Positions 7,842 through 62,337 of a stretch of 64,000 nt of DNA are shown here, one piece after another (position 1 is the stretch's first letter; each line of letters opens with the position of its first letter). The translations under genes were made by a program, and so were the position numbers. The notes under the pieces were generated by a model. It ran no database searches. It saw only the letters and a list, made by a program, of their open reading frames with translations, and was not told the origin of the DNA. The stretch is from Phoenix dactylifera (lineage: Eukaryota > Streptophyta > Magnoliopsida > Arecales > Arecaceae), in the NCBI RefSeq assembly GCF_009389715.1, contig NW_024067841.1, positions 1-64,000 of the forward strand, written 5' to 3'.

Positions 7842-9356
7842 TCAACTGGTATCCGTGTTGCTATTATAGAGCTTAGTCCTCTTATTAATCTCCTTCTCCA
7901 ACTCCTGCGCTCCCCCCACCTCCTCCAGTTCCTGAGATCACATAAAAAACAAGCAATTCGTCAACAACTTCTAAAAAAACGGACGCATCCGGAACACTGG
8001 AGCCTTTTTTTTTCACCATTGTCTTATACTGCTAAAAGATATGTCTAAAGAAAAAGGACAGTGAAAAAGAACAAGAAACCACCACCCACCTTCGGTCCCA
8101 AGAACAGCCCGTATGGCACCCCATCGAACTTGTCCATATGATGTATCTGAAAAGAATACCATGCACATAAATTAATTTAAACTAAAAATAAATAAATAAT
8201 AAATCCCTATTAATTGTGGTGCGGCCGTGTGGGAGACACGGGGCGCAAAAACGGACGGTAGGGAAAGGGGGCGGCAGAGGCACACCTGATGGGCGGCCGC
8301 GACTCGACGGAAGTAGGGAACGTTGGCGATGGGGCCCACCGGGAACCGCCGATGGACCAGCCCGTCGTGGACGAACATGTAGGCCATTCCGAACAGCGTA
8401 ATCCCCAGGCCCTATAACACACGGCCACGTGGACCTCAGATCACGCTGCAAGAAAGATCGGGATGACGTTGGGGAGGGGGGAAGGGGACTTACGGCGCCG
8501 AAGCAGAGGCCGGGGACGAGGCCGCGGGTGAAGAAGCCGAAGGAGAGGAGGGAAATGGCCGGGACGGCGTTGATGATGGCGAAGACGTCGTTAAGCTCGA
8601 AGGGGCCGTCGCGCGGCCGGTGGTGGGACTCGTGCATGTGCCACAGCGAGGCGTGCCACAGCGCCCGGTGCGCCCACCGCGCCCAATACTCCATCCCCAC
8701 CTAACCCACACCAATTAATACATTGTTTTAGTCTTGTAAAACTATAAACAAAGATTTTAATCATCGCTTACCGCTGCGCCCACAGAGAGAGCAAAGGTGC
8801 CGAACATTTCCGTCATCGGGACCGCTCCTCCCTGCGCCAAGAAGATGATGTTACTAATTTTAGTTCATCACGAACCGAATTGAATATGGCTCGGAGAAAT
8901 TTCAGGTAGGATGCAACCGACCTCCATTTGCCAGTAGAATCGGTAATAGACGGCGGCGACGGCCATGGAGGTGATGCCTAGGCTGGACATCACCGCCGCC
9001 GCTAGGTACGTCCGCCGCTCCGACTGCTTCCTCGCGATCTTCTCCGCCGTCCGGTCCAGCAAGATCCGCCGCTCCTCTTCCTCCGCCACCGCCGCATCGG
9101 AGATCGCTGTCTCCTCTGCCTCCTCCATCTCCGAACCCCGGCTCTGCCCCAAGACGAAGCAGACTGCGGCGGACCGCCTCCGCCGCTGCCAGGGCTGGAG
9201 CGCCCAGGCTATGGTAGACGGGCGGAGGCAGCGATTGGTGCGGAGGGGCGCGAAGAGCAGCACGCAGTCGTCGGCCATGGCGCAGCGGTGCGGCGAGCTG
9301 AGAAAGGGGTTCCTGAAGATGCCGCAAGTAACAGCAACGGAGATCCCAGGCGCCAT
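7842..9356 (-). CDS. BCH: Beta-carotene 3-hydroxylase (non-heme di-iron type), chloroplastic
   Basis: It hydroxylates the beta-rings of beta-carotene to give beta-cryptoxanthin and zeaxanthin in plastid membranes. Six exons on the minus strand: 9356-8922, 8831-8772, 8700-8494, 8411-8286, 8146-8090 and 7931-7842, all with GT..AG introns and matching phase, giving 324 aa. Residues 1 to about 60 look like a plastid transit peptide, followed by an acidic stretch and a membrane segment near 113-137. The di-iron histidine motifs are all present: H176xxxxH181, H188xxH191H192, H249xxxxH254 and H275xxH278H279. The C-terminus has the usual KELEEVGG and ELEKEI ending. The 5' UTR holds a CT repeat, and a TATA-like CTTTAAAAGG lies at 9573-9582. 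The start is the first ATG in frame before a plausible transit peptide. The gene looks intact. Confidence 0.95.
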
Positions 9357-32600: not shown

Positions 32601-32777
32601 GTTCGTACATGTATGCTGCTTTCTTGGCATTAGACAGGTGTAAGCTATATTATGCATACTAAACATCAAGAAATTCTTCCCTCAATGCAGATGGTATATG
32701 CTTTTACTTTCACATACATACCACATACCTCAACAACTTGAGTCTAATTTTTTCTAGTTCATCGCATGATTGCTAAT
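29623..32777. other. Intergenic stretch with weak exon-like traces
   Basis: No gene is supported. CT-rich patches lie at 30250-30670. On the minus strand, 32299-32232 could be a first coding exon (starting MMGPSTLVKQILFYIAAI, ending before GTATGATG), but no matching downstream exon was found and I do not recognise the protein. Confidence 0.3.
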
Positions 32778-34051
32778 TGTTGCTGGAAATTGGACCCGGG
32801 GGCCGCCGCGAAGCCGGGGAAGGAGGGGCTCCGCCGCAGGATGGTGGTCGGCGGTGCGCCGGCTGGCCGCGTCCTCCTGGAGGCTGTGGAGAGTGGGGTG
32901 AGCGGTGAAGAAGGCGTCCTGTCCCGTCCGGGGAGGAGGGGCTCCGCCGCAGGGACGGTGGTCGGCGGTGCGCCGGCTGGTGGCGTCCTCCTGGATGGTG
33001 CGAGTCCTGCAAGAAAAACCGGTGGCCGGGCTCCCCGGCGCCGGCCCTCCGATGCTTAAGTCAGAGGGGGCAAGTATGTGGAGAGAGCAGGGAAGAGAGT
33101 GTGTGGAGAAGACAGAGGAAATATTTGGACAAGATGAGGAGGATCAGTTTCCTCAATTGTGTCTGTGCTGTGTTCTCTCCTCCCGGTCTAGGAGGGTTCT
33201 CCTGGGGTCTCCCCCCTTCCCTTCTCCCAGGTTCCCTTTTATAGAAGGGGATTACGTTACCTGGGAGGTGGCAGGAGAATTTGTCCCTTTTCGTCATAAT
33301 TGGGCACGATTTGGCCCATTAATGGCGTAGTGGAGAACGGGACCGAATCAGACCGGAACCAGGGAGTTGTCACGGTCGATCGGACCTGTTGGAGTGGTTG
33401 AACCGCCGGCCGTGGTGGGCCTGGGGTCCGTGGATGGTAAGTGCATTTATTACCGAATGAACCGGCGGTCAGGGAGAGCCATACGCTTTGATGGTTCAGT
33501 GATCCGGAGATCGTCTTGAGCCGTGTTCATTAAATGACTGAGTGCATCAGAGACTTGGGGGGGTCTCGTGCATTAATGACAGGTCGTGCCGAATACCTGC
33601 GGAGATCTTATGCCTTGATGGCTTGGAGATAGCGGCAGGTTGAACATTTGGTTAAGGCATCGGCTCGGCGGGGGTGCCGAGCCAAGCTGGTCGCCCAATG
33701 GGGCGCCCTGTGGCGGGGTTGCTTCTAGTACTTCTGCTCGGCGCCCTTTGGGCGAGCGTCTTAGCGCTCTTTGGTTGGTTTCCTGGTCGGCGCTTTTTAG
33801 GCGAGCGCTTTCTCTGGTCGGCGTCCTCTGGTCGACTCTTTCTAGCCGAGCATCCCTACTTGGTCATTTTGGTTGGGCGCCTCTTCTTGGCGCTCTCTCT
33901 GGTCGGTGCTCTCTAGCCGAGCACCCTGCTGGTCGGCACTCTTCGGTCGAGCGCCTTTCCGGCCGGCGCCCTTTGGCCGAGCGCCTTTCTGGTCGGCGCC
34001 CTTTGGCCGAGCGCCTCCGTGGCGGTATGACTTGGGGTTTTTCCCCCAACA
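32778..34051 (-). repeat. 3' LTR of the deleted Tat element
   Basis: 1,274 bp, the same length as the partner LTR at 37569-38842 and about 99% similar by eye. It contains tandem runs of GGCGCCCTTTGGCCGAGCG-like units near 33690-34020. Confidence 0.92.
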
Positions 34052-34415
34052 CTTACCCCCCGACTTCCGAGTTCCAGTTGGGCTACCAGCTGGAGCGTAG
34101 GAAGTAGCTTCAGTTGGGTCATTATGGATTCCGAAAATCCTAATTTATTGCGCATTTTGAATTATCGAGCGCTTTGAAGTGCCTTTAATAGGCGGCGTCT
34201 CTCCTTTCCCGAAAAGTCTCATTATTGGGATACTTTTTGCGAGGCGTCCTCACGTCGTGGGCTCATGATGGGGGCCGCACGATCCAATGAGGCGCTTCGG
34301 TGTCCGAAGCGCTAGCCCTAATTAAATGCGTCGTTCTGTCTTTTGGACCGACACGCGTCGCCATCTCAAACAGGATACAGCATTTTTCTCGCTGATCTGG
34401 GCCGTTGGGGAGGTC

Positions 34416-34905: not shown

Positions 34906-37568
34906 TCGAATCCGGGAGACGGGGAGTGGCTTTACATCGCCCTTCGGGCGGGCTTTATTCAGGTCAGTGTAGTCCACGCACATACGCCCACTTCCCGCTG
35001 GCTTTCTTGACGAGGACCACATTGGCGAGCCACTCCGGGTAGGGCTATCTCCCGGATGAAGCCGGCCTCAAGGAGTTTGCTGACCTCCTCGGCTGCTGCT
35101 TGCTGTCGTTCAGGGCAGCGCCTCGCTTCTCTGCCGCACGGGCTTGCTGGTTGGCTTTACTTGGAGCCGGTGGACCATGATCTCGGGATCTATCCCCGGC
35201 ATGTCTGCAGGCGACCATGCGAAAACATCCATGTTGTCCAGCAGAAAGTTGACGAGGTGACCCCTCTCGTGCTCGTCGAGGCCGGAGCCGACCTGGCACG
35301 GTTATCTCGGGAAAGTTCTCTCGTAAGGGAACTTGGATCAGTAACTCACCAGGCTCTACCCGCTCTTTCTGAGGGTTGACCCGTGCCTCCATAACCTCGG
35401 TTGAGGGCTGGTCAGTTGCTGGGGCAAGCACCTCAGCTGGTCGCTTTGCCTCGTGGGTTGCCAGGGTAGGCATCGCCTTGCCAACGTTTGGTCTCCTCGA
35501 ACTTCGCCGACTCCCTGGCTGGTGGGGAATCTCATGAGCAAGTGGTGAGTTGAGACCACTGCTCGGAGGGCGTTGAGGCCTGGCCTTCCAAGGATGGCAT
35601 TGTAAACCGAGGGCAGGCGTATTACAAAGGAAGCTCATACCCACGGTACTTTCACGAGGGGCGCAGCCCGGCTGTGACCAGAAGGTCGATCTCGCCCTCT
35701 ACTGGGACTGAATCTCCAGTAAATCCAACTAACGGAGCATTCATCCTCCGTAGCTGTTCTTTTATCATCCCCATTTTACAATATGCACCAATGTACAAAC
35801 ATTCGCCGAGCTTCCATTATCGACCAAGATGCGTTTTACATCAAATCTATTTATGATCATGGAGATGACCACGGCATCATCATGGGGAGTTTCGACTCCC
35901 TTTAGGTCATCCATCTGAAAAGGAGATGGCTTCAGAGGCGCGCAGGCGCTTTGAGGAGGTTTCTTCCTCCGGAGCTTCTCCAGCCGAGGCCCCGCCTCGG
36001 ATAGTGTTGATGACGCCGGCGATGGGGCCTGTTGGCATTCGAACCTTCAGACTGTGCTGCTCTTTTCGGCTGGCTTCTTCCCTTCACGCCGGCCTTGCAC
36101 AAACCGATCGAGCACCCCTCGGCGGATGAGTGCTTCGATCTCATTTCGGAGCTGGTAACACTCCTCGGTATCATGGCCGTGATCCCGGTGGAAGCGGCAA
36201 TACTTCCGGGGATCACGCCGGATTCTGGTGTCTGGCTTCGGAGGTGGGAGCCGGATGCGATCCCGACTCTCAATCTCCATGAGGATTTCAGCCCGAGGAG
36301 CGTTGAGGGGAGTATATCTTTCATACCTCCCTTCGGGTGCACGGGCCTGCAGTGGGAACCTCGGACGGAGTGGTGACCTCTGCTGTGGCGGTCCCTCAAC
36401 CGGGGTGGACTCTTCGGGCGGGGTGGATTCCTAGCCCGTCGTGAAGACGGGCTTCTGGGCTGGCCGCGCTCCTCGCGGCGTCTCTTCTTGGGATTCTGCT
36501 CGGTTCCGCCCCGCCTAGCTGCCACGGCTTCTTCCGCCTTGGCGTACTTCCGCGCCCGGGCGAACATCCAGTGAGGTCCGCAGGGAAATTCTTCTCGATC
36601 GAGAAGAGGAATCTATAAGACCGGGCTCCAGTCTTTAGTGCTAGACATGGCGATGGACTGGTCAAGCTCCCGGACCTCCCATGTTGCGGCGGTAAACCGG
36701 TCCAAATACTCCTTGAAGGATTCTCCCTCCTTTTGCTTGATGTCTAGGAGGGAGTCGGATGTCCGCCGCTGGGGCTGGCTGGCGGCGAAATTGCCAAGCA
36801 AACTGTCTGCCGAGCCTGCTCAAAAGAGGAAGACAGTACTCGACTTCAGCCCGGTGAACCAAAGCCGGGCCGGTCCTCGGAGTGTCGCCGGAAAGGCCTT
36901 GCCACATCATGGCCTCCGAGGCTCCTTGCAGGGCCATCAGGACCCGGTAGCTTTCCCAGGTGGTCCAGGGGATCAGCCTTGCCGTTGTAAGGCTCCACCT
37001 GGGGCATCTTGAACCGGTAGCGGGACCGGTTCATCTTCAATCTCCTGGGAGAAGGGCGACTTCGTATTGAACTCGAAGTCGCCGTTATGTCCTGACTTCC
37101 TCCGTGGAGTGCCTGGATTTGGCGTTCCATGCTTCTCGACCTCCTTGTCGAGTTCATCATTCTGGAGGATCGCTGCAGCGGTTCGTTCGAGCGCAGGTTG
37201 CCCTGGAACCCACTCAGCTTCTGAAGGCTGTGGCCAGCCTCTGTGGCCTCTGGCTGGGTGCTCTCTCCAGAGGGAGGCCTGGACTTGAGAGTCCTGACCT
37301 CGAAGGGGAAGTCCGCTTGTAGGAGGCTCCGGTTGGACTGGAGCCCGAGGAGGCGGTGCCGTTGGGATGCCCCTGGGTTGCAAGCTTTGGACAGCAGTAG
37401 CCAACGCCTGCACTTGCTGCGCCAGGGCATCAAACTGCTCCGGTCGAACTTGAGGCGCTGACTCGGCCGGAGGTGGTGAGTTCCGAACGTTGACGTCGAG
37501 AGGCGTTGGAAGCCCCTTTGCTTCTTAGCTTCATGGCAGCGAACTCGGGCCCTTCCTCTAGCGCCAAC

Positions 37569-38842
37569 TGTTGCTGGAAATTGGACCCGGGGGCCGCCGC
37601 GAAGCCGGGGAAGGAGGGGCTCCGCCGCAGAGACGGTGGTCGGCGGTGCGCCGGCTGGCCGCGTCCTCCTGGAGGCTGTGGAGAGTGGGGTGAGCGGTGA
37701 AGAAGGCGTCCTGTCCCGTCCGGGGAGGAGGGGCTCCGCCGCAGGGACGGTGGTCGGCGGTGCGCCGGCTGATGGCGTCTTCCTGGAGGGTGCGAGTCCT
37801 GCAAGAAAAACCGGTGGCCGGGCTCCCCGGCGCCGGCCCTCCGATGCTTAAGTCAGAGGGGGCAAGTATGTGGAGAGAGCAGGGAAGAGAGTGTGTGGAG
37901 AAGACAGAGGAAATATTTGGACAAGATGAGGAGGATCAGTTTCCTCAATTGTGTCTGTGCTGTGTTCTCTCCTCCCGGTCTAGGAGGGTTCTCCTGGGGT
38001 CTCCTCCCTTCCCTTCTCCCAGGTTCCCTTTTATAGAAGGGGATTACATTACCTGGGAGGTGGCAGGGGAATTTGTCCCTTTTCGTCATAATTGGGCACG
38101 ATTTGGCCCATTAATGGCGTAGTGGAGAATGGGACCGAATCAGACCGGAACCAGGGAGTTGTCACGGTCGATCGGACCTGTTGGAGTGGTTGAACCGCCG
38201 GCCGTGGTGGGCCTGGGGTCCGTGGATGGTAAGTGCATTTATTACCGAATGAACCGGCGGTCAGGGAGAGCCATACGCTTTGATGGTTCAGTGATCCGGA
38301 GATCGTCTTGAGCCGTGTTCATTAAATGACTGAGTGCATCAGAGACTTGGGGGGTCTCGTGCATTAATGACAGGTCGTGCCGAATACCTGCGGAGATCTT
38401 ATGCCTTGATGGCTTGGAGATAGCGGCAGGTTGAACATTTGGTTAAGGCATCGGCTCGGCGGGGGTGCCGAGCCAAGCTGGTCGCCCAATGGGGCGCCCT
38501 GTGGCGGGGTTGCTTCTAGTACTTCTGCTCGGCGCCCTTTGGGCGAGCGTCTTCGCGCTCTTTGGTTGGTTTCCTGGTCGGCGCTTTTTAGGCGAGCGCT
38601 TTCTCTGGTCGGCGTCCTCTGGTCGACTCTTTCTAGCCGAGCATCCCTACTTGGTCATTTTGGTTGGGCGCCTCTTCTTGGCACTCTCTCTGGTCGGTGC
38701 TCTCTAGCCGAGCACCCTGCTGGTCGGCACTCTTCGGTCGAGCGCCTTTCCGGCCGGCGCCCTTTGGCCGAGCGCCTTTCTGGTCGGCGCCCTTTGGCCG
38801 AGCGCCTCCGTGGCGGTATGACTTGGGGTTTTTCTCCCAACA
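37569..38842 (-). repeat. 5' LTR of the deleted Tat element
   Basis: 1,274 bp. In element orientation it starts TGTTGGGAG and ends CCAGCAACA. The TATA box is near 38030-38040 on the minus strand. Confidence 0.92.
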
Positions 38843-38847
38843 CTAAT

Positions 38848-39460
38848 CAATTTGTGATTATTATTTTGACTTCTTCTGTACCCATTCATATTTTTTTTCA
38901 TGAATTATTCTTATTTATGTTTTATTCAATCTAACACCATTGAAGTCTTAAAATTGTTACCGATTATTTATATTTTATTTGTTTTTCCTTAGAAGTGTGG
39001 TTATAACGATTTTGTATATTTAAATGTTTTCTTATCAACAAATTGCTGATAAGAGGGTAAGTCTATGTGCAATACTAAGATTGCTCTAATATGACATGGA
39101 TTACATATTTGTAAATTGTAATATGGAAGTAGCCTCTTCATACGAGGGAGGAGTTTTCTGCCCTGGAATGCTATTTTAATGATATGAGTTTATATTTGTC
39201 CTCAAGGCAAGCGATTGGAGAATTCATCAACATTTCGGCCGCCGGTATAATTGAAGCACAAAAGGCTTTGGTATTCAAAATATGTGACTAACAGTTATTT
39301 ACTTGATGTGTTATTATGGGGGTATTCCTGTGCATTTCTGCATATCCCATTTCTGAGGGCAAGTTCTGATTCTATAACACTTCTGAGATCCATAATCTAT
39401 GTAAATTCTCGATAGCGATCTACCAGAGAAGGCATTCTGTATCCTTTACCAATAAATATA
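38848..39460. other. Intergenic spacer between two LTR insertions
   Basis: AT-rich unique-looking DNA with no gene recognised. Confidence 0.4.
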
Positions 39461-44470: not shown

Positions 44471-45629
44471 TCTCAATCTATATATTATATGATTTAAGCC
44501 AAGAAAACTTAAAAGCTGCTTTGTGCATAAATTGAGTTCAAAACTCGAATCCTACCTAATTTGACTCCCCAAACATTGATCATAAAGGTCAACAAATTGA
44601 ACTCCCCCCCCAAACCAAACAAAGGACCAAACCAAACCACAAGCTGAAAATAATAGAGAAAACAATAATAATGACCCAAGCACTAGGCATAAAACGTAAA
44701 CATAAAATTCATAAATTTTCATAAGAAGATGGACATTGTCAATGCCGAATCATATTAATTGATTTTCTTTTTTTACAAAAAGGAAGTAAATTTATAGATT
44801 CACTGTTTATAATCTGCTTTGAAATGTTTTTTCATTATAATATTTTTGAATTGCAATTGTTTATTTCATGAAGCGCAATAGTTTGGCAAAGAATCAAATA
44901 AGCTGGCTTCAAGTAAGGTAGATCATTTTATAGAACAAGTTTCACGAGATAATGATACACTGACATTAACAGGATTCACAAAAAATAACTTTATAATATC
45001 TTTTGTGAGCCCAACTAATGCCATGCCGATGAAGAAGAATGCACAACCATTTATCCCACAAGACTTGCCCCAAGACTTGTCCCATAAACTGACCCACCAA
45101 TCATTTTGATCAATGAAAAGAAAAAAACAATTAATTTTTTGTTTCCTACAACATTGTCTAAAAATGAATACGATGAACTATCTCCGAATTTGTTAAATTT
45201 CTCTCAAAAGTAAGCCATCTTAGAAGAGAGACATACACATAGACTGAACAAACACCTAGCCCATTATTTTTTTCGGAAATTTCTTATTAGAACAAAAATA
45301 AATTTTTCCCATACTTTCACTCTCGCAACAACCAAACAAAAACATTTAATTACATCTTCACCTAACAGACTAGCAGGTTCCGGAGCAGATTACTCTTTTA
45401 GCAAAAAAAAAAATCTTTGTTACAGATTTAACACAAATCCAGGAAACCGACATTAAACTGTAAACCGATGATAAAAATTTCGCGAACCAGTGGATCTGAC
45501 TCACCCCCGTCTAGATCCAAAACGTCATCCCCATGAATTAAAAATAGAGAGCCAAACAAATAGATGCTTTAAGATTAAAGCACCAGCCATGTCAGCAAAG
45601 AGCCGGGAAGAGGTATGAGAAACGAAATC
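44471..45629. other. AT-rich stretch between the snoRNA cluster and its duplicated tail
   Basis: No gene recognised; the right part is the diverged duplicate described for 43789-44253. Confidence 0.4.
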
Positions 45630-45630
45630 T

Positions 45631-45719
45631 TGCTCAGAAAATGAAATATCTTCTCATAGATGCATAAGCATCTCTGAAGTCTGATATGCGAAGATTGTAT
45701 TTCATAAATCATCATAGCA
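45631..45719 (-). ncRNA. Weak box C/D snoRNA candidate
   Basis: On the minus strand: a C box ATGATGA (45709-45715), a D box CTGA (45634-45637), 89 nt overall, and a short stem TGCT/AGCA that overlaps the D box. It follows two better snoRNAs on the same strand with similar spacing. The guide target was not identified, and the terminal stem is poor. Confidence 0.35.
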
Positions 45720-45827
45720 TCAGAAATTAAAACAATTAGAAATATTACAAAGAAAGAATACGAAAAGGAACTACAGAGAAAGTAGATAATATTAGGAGTT
45801 TGAGAACCTTTTTTTTCTTCTCCTTGT

Positions 45828-45910
45828 GTGGGATCAGAGGTTGGTAAAAAAGTATCAGTCACGGTAAAATCAGAAACACGGACCAATATATTCTCATCAT
45901 CATCTCCCAC
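45828..45910 (-). ncRNA. U18: Box C/D snoRNA, U18-type guide for 25S rRNA
   Basis: On the minus strand: a terminal stem GTGGGA/TCCCAC encloses a C box (GATGATGA) and a D box (CTGA). An internal D' box (CTGA) is preceded by TTGGTCCGTGTTT. That 13-nt guide is the complement of AAACACGGACCAA in 25S rRNA, and the fifth base from D' faces the A of AAACA, the site methylated by U18 in yeast (A649) and its human homologue. Length is 83 nt. In vertebrates U18 is intronic; plant snoRNAs are usually in polycistronic clusters, which fits the neighbours here. Confidence 0.88.
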
Positions 45911-46010
45911 GGATGAAATCATTCAATAGATGATTCGAAACATTTAAAAGAACACGATAACAAATATAAAGATAAAAAAGAAGAAGATGAGATCGAATAA
46001 AACAGAGGAA

Positions 46011-46093
46011 GGGATCATCAGAGACTTAAATACTAAGAATCACAGCATAGATTAGCGCTTCATATTGTTGCAGTTTGCTCATCACTTGATCCC
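46011..46093 (-). ncRNA. Box C/D snoRNA, target not identified
   Basis: On the minus strand: a perfect 7-bp terminal stem GGGATCA/TGATCCC flanks a C box GTGATGA and a D box CTGA; length 83 nt. Possible D'/C' boxes are CTAA and GTGATTC. The likely guide next to D is TTAGTATTTAAGTCT; I could not match it confidently to rRNA or snRNA from memory. It lies 100 bp upstream of the U18-type snoRNA on the same strand, so the two are probably processed from one precursor. Confidence 0.78.
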
Positions 46094-46300
46094 TATTTCT
46101 AGGATCGCAAATAAACCATTCGATCTCCAGGAAGCGAATAAAAGAAAAACAGAGCAAGGATGGAGAGGAAGGGAGTATAGGAAACAAAACCAGGGCAATG
46201 GCCTTCCCCGAAGAGAGCCAGAGAAGCAAAGAGCCTGACCCCTGAAGCCGGGCGAGGGACGAAATCGAGGAGAGTTGAGTGGGAGCAGCCGCCCCTGTAA

Positions 46301-46337
46301 CCTTTTTATAGCCAATCTCGGGAACCCTAAAACCCTA
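46301..46337 (-). promoter_or_regulatory. TATA box and telo-box of the snoRNA cluster
   Basis: TATAAAAAGG on the minus strand (46301-46310) lies about 205 bp before the first snoRNA. Just upstream, AAACCCTA (plus-strand 46330-46337, beside a second ACCCTA) is a telo-box. Plant promoters of snoRNA clusters and ribosomal-protein genes commonly carry telo-boxes. Confidence 0.7.
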
Positions 46338-46339
46338 GA

Positions 46340-47204
46340 CGCTGATCGAGTTTCCTGGCTTCACGAGCGGCGAGTCGGCGCATCTATATGGTCTGACACG
46401 TGCCGTGCACGAGAGTACCATGGTACCGGGCTTTGGGTTCGAAGCTTCTGGATCCAAACCCGCAACCCGTCTCCAAACCCATTCAAAAGAAACCAGTTTT
46501 AGGGGTACGAAAAAAAAAAATCGTTTCTTTTGCTCCATAGCACCCATTGAGCTTCTAATTGCTAGTTTTCTCGTATTATTTTGATGCCCAGCCCTTATCC
46601 TTAGTGTTGGCCCTATTTTATTTTTTTATTGGCCATGATAAATAATTGATAGATAACATGCTAATTGGGATGGCAAGTGCGGTATGTGTCCAAATTAAAT
46701 AAATATGTTGAATATGACTTCAGTTTTTCAACCTTATAAGTAGCTTAAGTATGAATTTAGGTTTTTTTTTTAAATTTTTTTCCCATCCCAACCACAACTT
46801 GATCCAATCTGACCCACAACCATCTAAATTATATCGCCTTCTTCTAGCCTAATTGATTCCTTTGTATTAATCTTGTAGTTCGATAGTAAACAATCCTAAT
46901 TTTTAAAGGATACATTTTCCAGTTTTTTCTTGTTATGGCCACCCATTTTTGGCAAATATGATGCGTGTTTGAATAAATGGGACTCTGTTAATCCCATTGA
47001 TTCAATGTTTTTACTTATTTAAGTGAAAATGCACTTTTATTTTTCCTTGTGCATTTCTTTTGTTTCTTTACATTAGATATTTCGTAACAAAAACTATTAA
47101 AAGTACGCAGAGAGCAAGAAGAAAGAATGAAAAAAAAGAAAAATTCAGATGGTCGATAATTGCAAACCATGAAAAAATTTGTAGGCCTTCCTACATAATT
47201 TTAG
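46340..47204. other. Intergenic stretch
   Basis: The first part may be the distal promoter of the snoRNA cluster; the rest is AT-rich with no gene recognised. Confidence 0.4.
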
Positions 47205-47690
47205 ACGGGTACTTCATATAATGCATGTACGAATACATTCAATAAAATCAAAAAATACAAACTTACGGAGTGCCTGTGGCAACTCTTCCTTTCCTGACCA
47301 CAGAGTATACCCTGAGTGGTGGGCCGCGTAAGCAGCCACCCAGTCGACTGCCTCGTTGGCTTATTGAATACATGCTTGACCTGGAAAGCCACTCCATCCC
47401 TCATCATCATCCCTATGTCCCGGATCAGGAGGTGGTCCGTGCTCTCGCCCCTCGGCCCCCCTGAATCTATCCGATAATCGTGGCTGAATCACCTTCCAGA
47501 ATAATCGAACTGCCCTGCAGCACCTGCCACGCATGTCGGAGACCTGACCGGCAGCCCGCAACTCCGTCTCGGAAACCGACATGTCAAACAACTGGCAGCC
47601 GCCCGCTGCCACCACCCTGGATCCACCTTTGGTGATTTGTGCGGACACGATTGGCCAGCCCTAGAAATAGACACATCGTGAAAGCCAAAG
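47205..47690 (-). mobile_element. Short LINE 3' fragment, same family as 26066-27972
   Basis: On the minus strand: RNase H remnants (SRVVAAGGCQLFDMSVSETE) and the same 3' text as the larger LINE, including ACTCAGGGTATACTCTG-like and GTACCCGT-like sequence near the 3' end. It is frameshifted and has lost its 5' part. The alignment with the other copy is clear across about 450 bp. Confidence 0.8.
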
Positions 47691-48779: not shown

Positions 48780-49880
48780 AGAAAAGGACGAACATTGAAT
48801 TGCATGGACCAATAAGGAGTGAGATAGACGGATTGACGGGAAATGGATCTGGAGGATGAGGGTGCATCTCCGGGTGGCGCTTTTTCTTCAGAAGGTGGCT
48901 TGGGCTGCCTACCGATCGGAAGTATGCTTGCTAGATGGGGAATGCAAATGACCTCGCTCTATGAGGTATGTCTGGATGCTAAAGAGACCATCAACTATGT
49001 ACTTCTTCGGTGCCCTACAGCCGTACATACCTAGAGATGTTCACCAATCCATTCGACGTGGGAGTTGGTAGAGGATATGCTTCGGTATCTGAGAGATTCC
49101 CTCTGAAGGCCGAGTACTGCAAAGATGGGGATCATAGTTGTTTACTTAGCCTATCATATCTGATTGGACAGGAACGACCGTCTGTTTGAGGGCAAGAGAT
49201 CGTCCCCATGTATTGTGCTTGACAGAGCCATGCAGGGTGCGACAGAGGTTACTATGTTGGCTACGTCGTCCTCATCTGGGAGGGCCAGGGATATCTGGGG
49301 TAGCTGTTCCGTTGTCTCGGCATCCAGGTTTATCTACTTATTTTGAGTACCCTCACCTCCTGGTTATCTTAAGGTGAATTTCGATGGAGGCATGGTGGGT
49401 GATGGCGCCTATGAGAAAGTGGGTTTTGTGATCCGGAACTATAGGGGCAGATTCATAGCAGTTGGAGGGCGAAGCACACTAGGTCTGACTGTAGTGGGAG
49501 CGGAACTACGAGCAGCATGGGAGAGTATTTGTTATACGAAACGGGTGCTGGGAGCCGACAGCTTATTCCTCAAGGGTGATTCTTCGACGGTGATTGACTG
49601 GATTCAGAGAGCGGATAGGTACAGAGATGGTCATCCATTGATACGAGATACCTGCATATTGGCAAGTGAGTTGACCTCCTTCCGAATAGCTCATGTATAT
49701 CGGAAGGCGAAATGTAGCAGACTATGTCGCCTCTTATGTCGCTCGGCACTTCGAAAAGGTCATTTAGACAAGCTTAGCTAGTATTCCACACCTTTTGTAC
49801 CGTTTACTTTTACATAATTTAGCAGATTTTTACTTTTTACAATTATATAAATTGAAACGTTATTTTGATTAAAAAAAAAA
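48780..49880 (+). mobile_element. 5'-truncated LINE fragment with RNase H domain
   Basis: On the plus strand: a zinc-binding RT-associated region (CLDAKETINYVLLRCPTA, about 48955-49020), then after frame changes an RNase H domain (VNFDGGMVGDG at 49374, VVGAELRAAW, LKGDSSTVIDWI) open to 49781. It ends at an A run (49870-49880). The C-terminal aspartate motif is not in frame. It belongs to the same broad L1 group as the LINE at 26066-27972 but is not its close copy. Confidence 0.82.
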
Positions 49881-61405: not shown

Positions 61406-61680
61406 AGCAAGAATTTTTATAGCTATATTGGTCAAACATTCAAACATACCTTGCTAACAAGTAACAATTAGTGACATCCATGTTTGTTTTCCAGCGGCGA
61501 ACGTGGAAAATGTGCAGCTAAAATAATCAGGAAGCTGAAATGTCTGCACGTCCAATTTGACCAATACTTCAAGGCGCGGTGACCACGTCCCGTAAAAGGC
61601 GTGAACCGGGCGAACCCCCGAACCGGCGACAGCAATATCGAACCGAGAAAAGAAAAACTTGAAGGAATTCTCGCCTCCAC
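59650..61680. other. Intergenic stretch with (TA)n and (CATA)n arrays
   Basis: Contains (AT)n at about 60631-60659, (CATA)n followed by (TA)n at 60905-60983, and a roughly 85-bp pure (AT)n run at 61314-61398. A minus-strand block at 60306-60049 is open but matches nothing I know. Confidence 0.6.
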
Positions 61681-61753
61681 AATTAAAATATACCACCTGC
61701 CCCCTTATTTGCGACTTTTCTCTCCCTCCCTCTCAGGCTCCTACCGCTCGACC

Positions 61754-62337
61754 ATGGCTTCCTCTTCCGTCTTCTTGGCCTCCCCAATCCTCCCCTCCAA
61801 ACCCGCCCAAAGACGACCCCTCTCTCTTCCCTCCGCCACCTCTCTTCCCAGTTCCATCTCGGCCTTTCCTCGATCCCTCCGGCGTCCGCCGCCGAACTCC
61901 CGGCCGCTGACCGCCGTCGCCGCCGTCTCGGTGGAGCAGCAGGACTCCGTCAAACCCGCGGCTCAGCCCTCCTCTCCTCCTCCTGCCCTCCCTTTCCGGA
62001 TAGGGCACGGATTCGATCTCCACCGCCTCGAGCCAGGTCTCCCTCTGATCATTGGCGGCATCGATATACCTCACGACCGGGGGTGCGAGGCCCACTCCGA
62101 TGGTAATTAGCACAAATTATTGGTTACAGTTGGGGGTGAGATTCGTTTAGGGTTTTTAGATTGATTTTGATTATGGCTTTTTTATTATTGATTGCTTCTG
62201 TTGCAGGGGATGTGTTGCTTCACTGTGTGGTGGACGCGATTTTGGGGGCGCTGGGGCTTCCCGATATAGGCCAGATTTTTCCTGACTCGGACCCAAAGTG
62301 GAGGGGTGCGGCTTCTTCCGTCTTCGTGAGAGAAGCT
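61754..62337 (+). CDS. ISPF: 2-C-methyl-D-erythritol 2,4-cyclodiphosphate synthase, chloroplastic (5' part)
   Basis: The enzyme of the plastid MEP pathway that cyclises CDP-methylerythritol phosphate to MEcPP. Exon 1 is 61754-62102 and exon 2 is 62207-62337 (GT..AG, in phase), giving 160 residues; the remaining exons lie beyond 64000, so intron 2 exceeds 1.66 kb. Residues 1 to about 55 are a serine/proline-rich transit peptide. The mature part starts [12 protein letters not shown], with the zinc-binding Asp and His of DLH, then [30 protein letters not shown] (third zinc ligand and active-site loop) and [16 protein letters not shown]. The start is the first ATG, in good context (ACCATGG). The visible part is intact. 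Confidence 0.94.

Follow-up and report, generated by a model that had tools for sequence, protein, structure and literature searches.

A minus-strand cluster of three box C/D small nucleolar RNAs of known families in Phoenix dactylifera

We analysed a stretch of 64,000 nucleotides (nt) from Phoenix dactylifera (contig NW_024067841.1, positions 1 to 64,000; hereafter the window), in which a minus-strand unit carries two telo-boxes, a TATA box and then three box C/D small nucleolar RNAs (snoRNAs), here numbered 1 to 3 (Table 1). A paralog lies on contig C5. The first-pass annotation had described a minus-strand snoRNA cluster with a telo-box and a TATA box; both motifs were located, and that reading of the locus was right.

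Table 1. Positions of the promoter motifs, snoRNAs, boxes and guides of the cluster in the window (bp, base pairs)
Feature	Position	Strand	Basis
Two telo-boxes CTAGGGTTTTAGGGTT	46323..46338	-	Motif match; telo-boxes equally placed with respect to TATA in the C5 paralog
TATA box TATAAAAA	46303..46310	-	Motif match; CTATAAAA kept in the C5 paralog
Box C/D snoRNA 1, Rfam snoZ199, 8-bp terminal stem included	46010..46094	-	RF00200, boxes, stem, 18S guide
snoRNA 1 box C GTGATGA	46085-46079	-	Boxes read in sequence
snoRNA 1 D' guide	46075-46064	-	18S pairing
snoRNA 1 degenerate D' ATGA	46063-46060	-	
snoRNA 1 box D CTGA	46021-46018	-	
Box C/D snoRNA 2, U18/SNORD18, 6-bp terminal stem included	45828..45910	-	RF00093, own-25S guide, stem
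snoRNA 2 box C	45903-45897	-	
snoRNA 2 guide TTGGTCCGTGTTT, 13 nt, before box D'	45886-45874	-	Perfect match to own 25S
snoRNA 2 box D' CTGA	45873-45870	-	
snoRNA 2 box D	45837-45834	-	
snoRNA 3, snoR64	45629..45723	-	RF00267, own-25S guide, box positions

All three snoRNAs have the box C, box D and closing terminal stem that define the class, the stem of snoRNA 3 being weak. Scanning the whole window for an exact box C, a CTGA and a stem of at least 5 bp gave three candidates, two of them inside the unit; 60 Markov simulations under the same rule averaged 0.2 and never exceeded 2. SnoRNA 3 fails this rule through its weak stem, and the scan gave no further snoRNA candidate in the unit. A fourth snoRNA was rejected: nearly all of the 31 matches between 45300 and 46700 (E value up to 10) overlap the three snoRNAs, the exceptions being plus-strand Afu_198 (E 1.3) and CRISPR-repeat (E 6.1). 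No relatives were found in plasmids.

By covariance model, snoRNA 1 matched RF00200 over its full length, with 70.8 bits against a gathering threshold of 47. Its terminal stem is perfect, as had been claimed, although 8 bp long instead of 7. When its guide was compared with 18S ribosomal RNA (rRNA), as the first-pass annotation had recommended, the D' guide paired over 12 nt (one G-U) with the 18S of other eukaryotes in the D+5 register. The target base corresponds by numbering to Arabidopsis 18S U615, which is methylated and listed as a SnoR13 site in PMC8053127. SnoR13 has a second target, 25S U3301; a pattern search of the assembly did not find the 25S 3' end. PMC8351944 contains neither SnoR13 nor SnoR58Y. 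Eukaryotic 18S ribosomal DNA (rDNA) also occurs inside contigs filed as bacterial genomes (L021-L031), presumably as contamination.

For snoRNA 2, a U18-type snoRNA with a 13-nt 25S guide had been proposed, together with an Rfam search for SNORD18 on the minus strand. That search returned RF00093 at 43.8 bits by covariance model, just above the gathering threshold of 41. A pattern for the 5' part of 25S gave two copies in the genome, L014 and L015, and the guide to 25S AAACACGG that characterizes SNORD18 pairs perfectly over 13 nt with this own 25S. In the D+5 register, it points to A667 of L014 (numbered from the start of 25S), a predicted target that fits the equivalent of Arabidopsis A661 (numbered A660 in PMC8351944). 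At 1637, the 25S gene in L014 (contig C153) gives way to other sequence; therefore, at least this assembled rDNA copy is incomplete.

The third snoRNA had been called weaker, which holds for its terminal stem but not for its family score. It matched RF00267 over its full length with 78.7 bits by covariance model (gathering threshold 45), the highest of the three, and carries boxes C, D', C' and D. Its D' guide pairs with own 25S in the D+5 register over 14 nt (one G-U; 14-15 nt in all) and points to C681 in L014. In the Arabidopsis methylation table of PMC8053127, A661 belongs to U18 and C675 and U676 to SnoR58Y. The spacing of A667 and C681 is 14, the same as that of A661 and C675, and the predicted target fits a role in which snoR64 here would do what SnoR58Y does in Arabidopsis at C675.

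The U18 and snoR64 duplexes touch on L014 (1343-1356 and 1357-1371, with the first base of each box D' included), together covering one unbroken 29-base 25S stretch (14 + 15). In each of the four guide/25S tests, no more than 3 of 1000 shuffled guides reached the same level. The snoR64 guide reads CGCATATCAGACTT in the window vs CaCAUGUCAGACUU in the Rfam consensus, and both differing bases make Watson-Crick pairs with own 25S, in both copies. This suggests guide-target coevolution of snoR64 with 25S. It does no more than suggest it, because the usual plant 25S form, which would match the consensus guide, did not turn up in the collections or papers searched, because the pan-eukaryote large-subunit (LSU) consensus is weakly conserved at the snoR64 target, and because two contaminant LSU pieces differ again there. 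A text search for two 25S forms found no paper; rRNA patterns were absent from viral contigs and the 25S pattern from bacterial genome contigs. We regard it as rather unlikely that co-transcribed U18 and snoR64 are a coordinated pair in which, in this plant lineage, the snoR64 guide changed in step with 25S at two positions, the cluster recording their coevolution. Such a co-change would amount to a small test, made by nature, of how guides pair with their targets.

The telo-box and TATA box precede the first snoRNA by about 210 bases, the arrangement required of a telo-box polycistronic snoRNA gene. The nearest upstream Site II is borderline under a rule of TGGGCY within 1 kilobase (kb), lying at 47320, 982 bases past the telo-box edge and 1010 past the TATA box; in the C5 paralog, TGGGCT lies upstream of the telo-box at a distance of 215 bases. 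According to PMC3022908, the telo-box occurs with Site II or a TEF box in 34 of 40 Arabidopsis loci, and intronic snoRNA genes are common in rice. The latter would accord with a longer host gene that carries the cluster in an intron or untranslated region and releases it by splicing, with no transcription from a promoter of its own. However, a telo-box/TATA promoter stands close upstream and has been retained in the C5 paralog, and between 40918 and 48112 there is no stop-to-stop frame of at least 120 amino acids (shorter exons still possible), so that we consider a host gene highly improbable.

In a genome-wide search, snoR64 exceeded the gathering threshold in the window, on C510 and on C5; scoring covered 55 of the 266132 first-look candidates, and these three copies are therefore a lower bound. 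Relics of snoR64 below the Rfam threshold are L019/L020 (contigs C37 and C42) and L009/L010 (C1085/C6), and no box C was found at the expected place in the C37 and C42 relics. The complete U18 and snoR64 pair on C5, with decayed snoR64 relics elsewhere, would be compatible with the locus being a decaying duplicate whose expressed copy is on C5, a reading to which we assign a minimal probability; the cluster is real and appears intact. The first-pass annotation had also taken snoRNA 1 for an orphan without a nameable target, possibly lineage-specific. Own 18S was not retrieved (0 matches by pattern search), which leaves some room for this, but the membership of snoRNA 1 in snoZ199 and a 12-nt guide in register on a base methylated in Arabidopsis overturn the claim, and we hold an orphan guide to be extremely improbable. 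The locus looks like a small, ordinary plant gene whose three guide RNAs, all from known families, direct rRNA modification.

Elsewhere in the window, a minus-strand open frame (8182-8700) matches fatty-acid hydroxylase below threshold (27.2 bits against a cut-off of 31) and looks like a beta-carotene hydroxylase exon. A plus-strand frame (61583-62110) carries the beginning of a YgbB domain (44.1 bits) and is probably a first exon of MECDP synthase; telo-box matches lie at 62145-62148. An RVT_3 frame (49347-49781, plus strand, 38.8 bits) about 3 kb from the cluster is likely a retroelement remnant. The open frames at 32754-34107 and 37558-38934 read nearly alike and are probably a duplicated repeat element.

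Recovered from raw sequence in a region without a long reading frame, the cluster is of a kind already described, a standard plant C/D snoRNA cluster. It leaves the known picture unchanged and adds a clean case in which promoter motifs and three guides come together with a paralog that has partly decayed. Like the plant telo-box polycistronic clusters in PMC3022908 and PMC4660826, it has a telo-box and TATA box before several same-strand snoRNAs; unlike them, the window copy has its nearest upstream Site II about 1 kb off. SnoRNA 1 resembles Arabidopsis SnoR13 in its predicted target. SnoRNA 2 matches RF00093 over its full length with the same guide letters, but has an 8-base insert in the middle and a score barely over gathering. 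SnoRNA 3 shares the length and boxes of RF00267, whereas its D' guide departs from the consensus at the two places that pair with own 25S. Arabidopsis SnoR64 is assigned U2884 in the methylation table of PMC8053127, whereas the predicted target of snoRNA 3 is the C675 equivalent.
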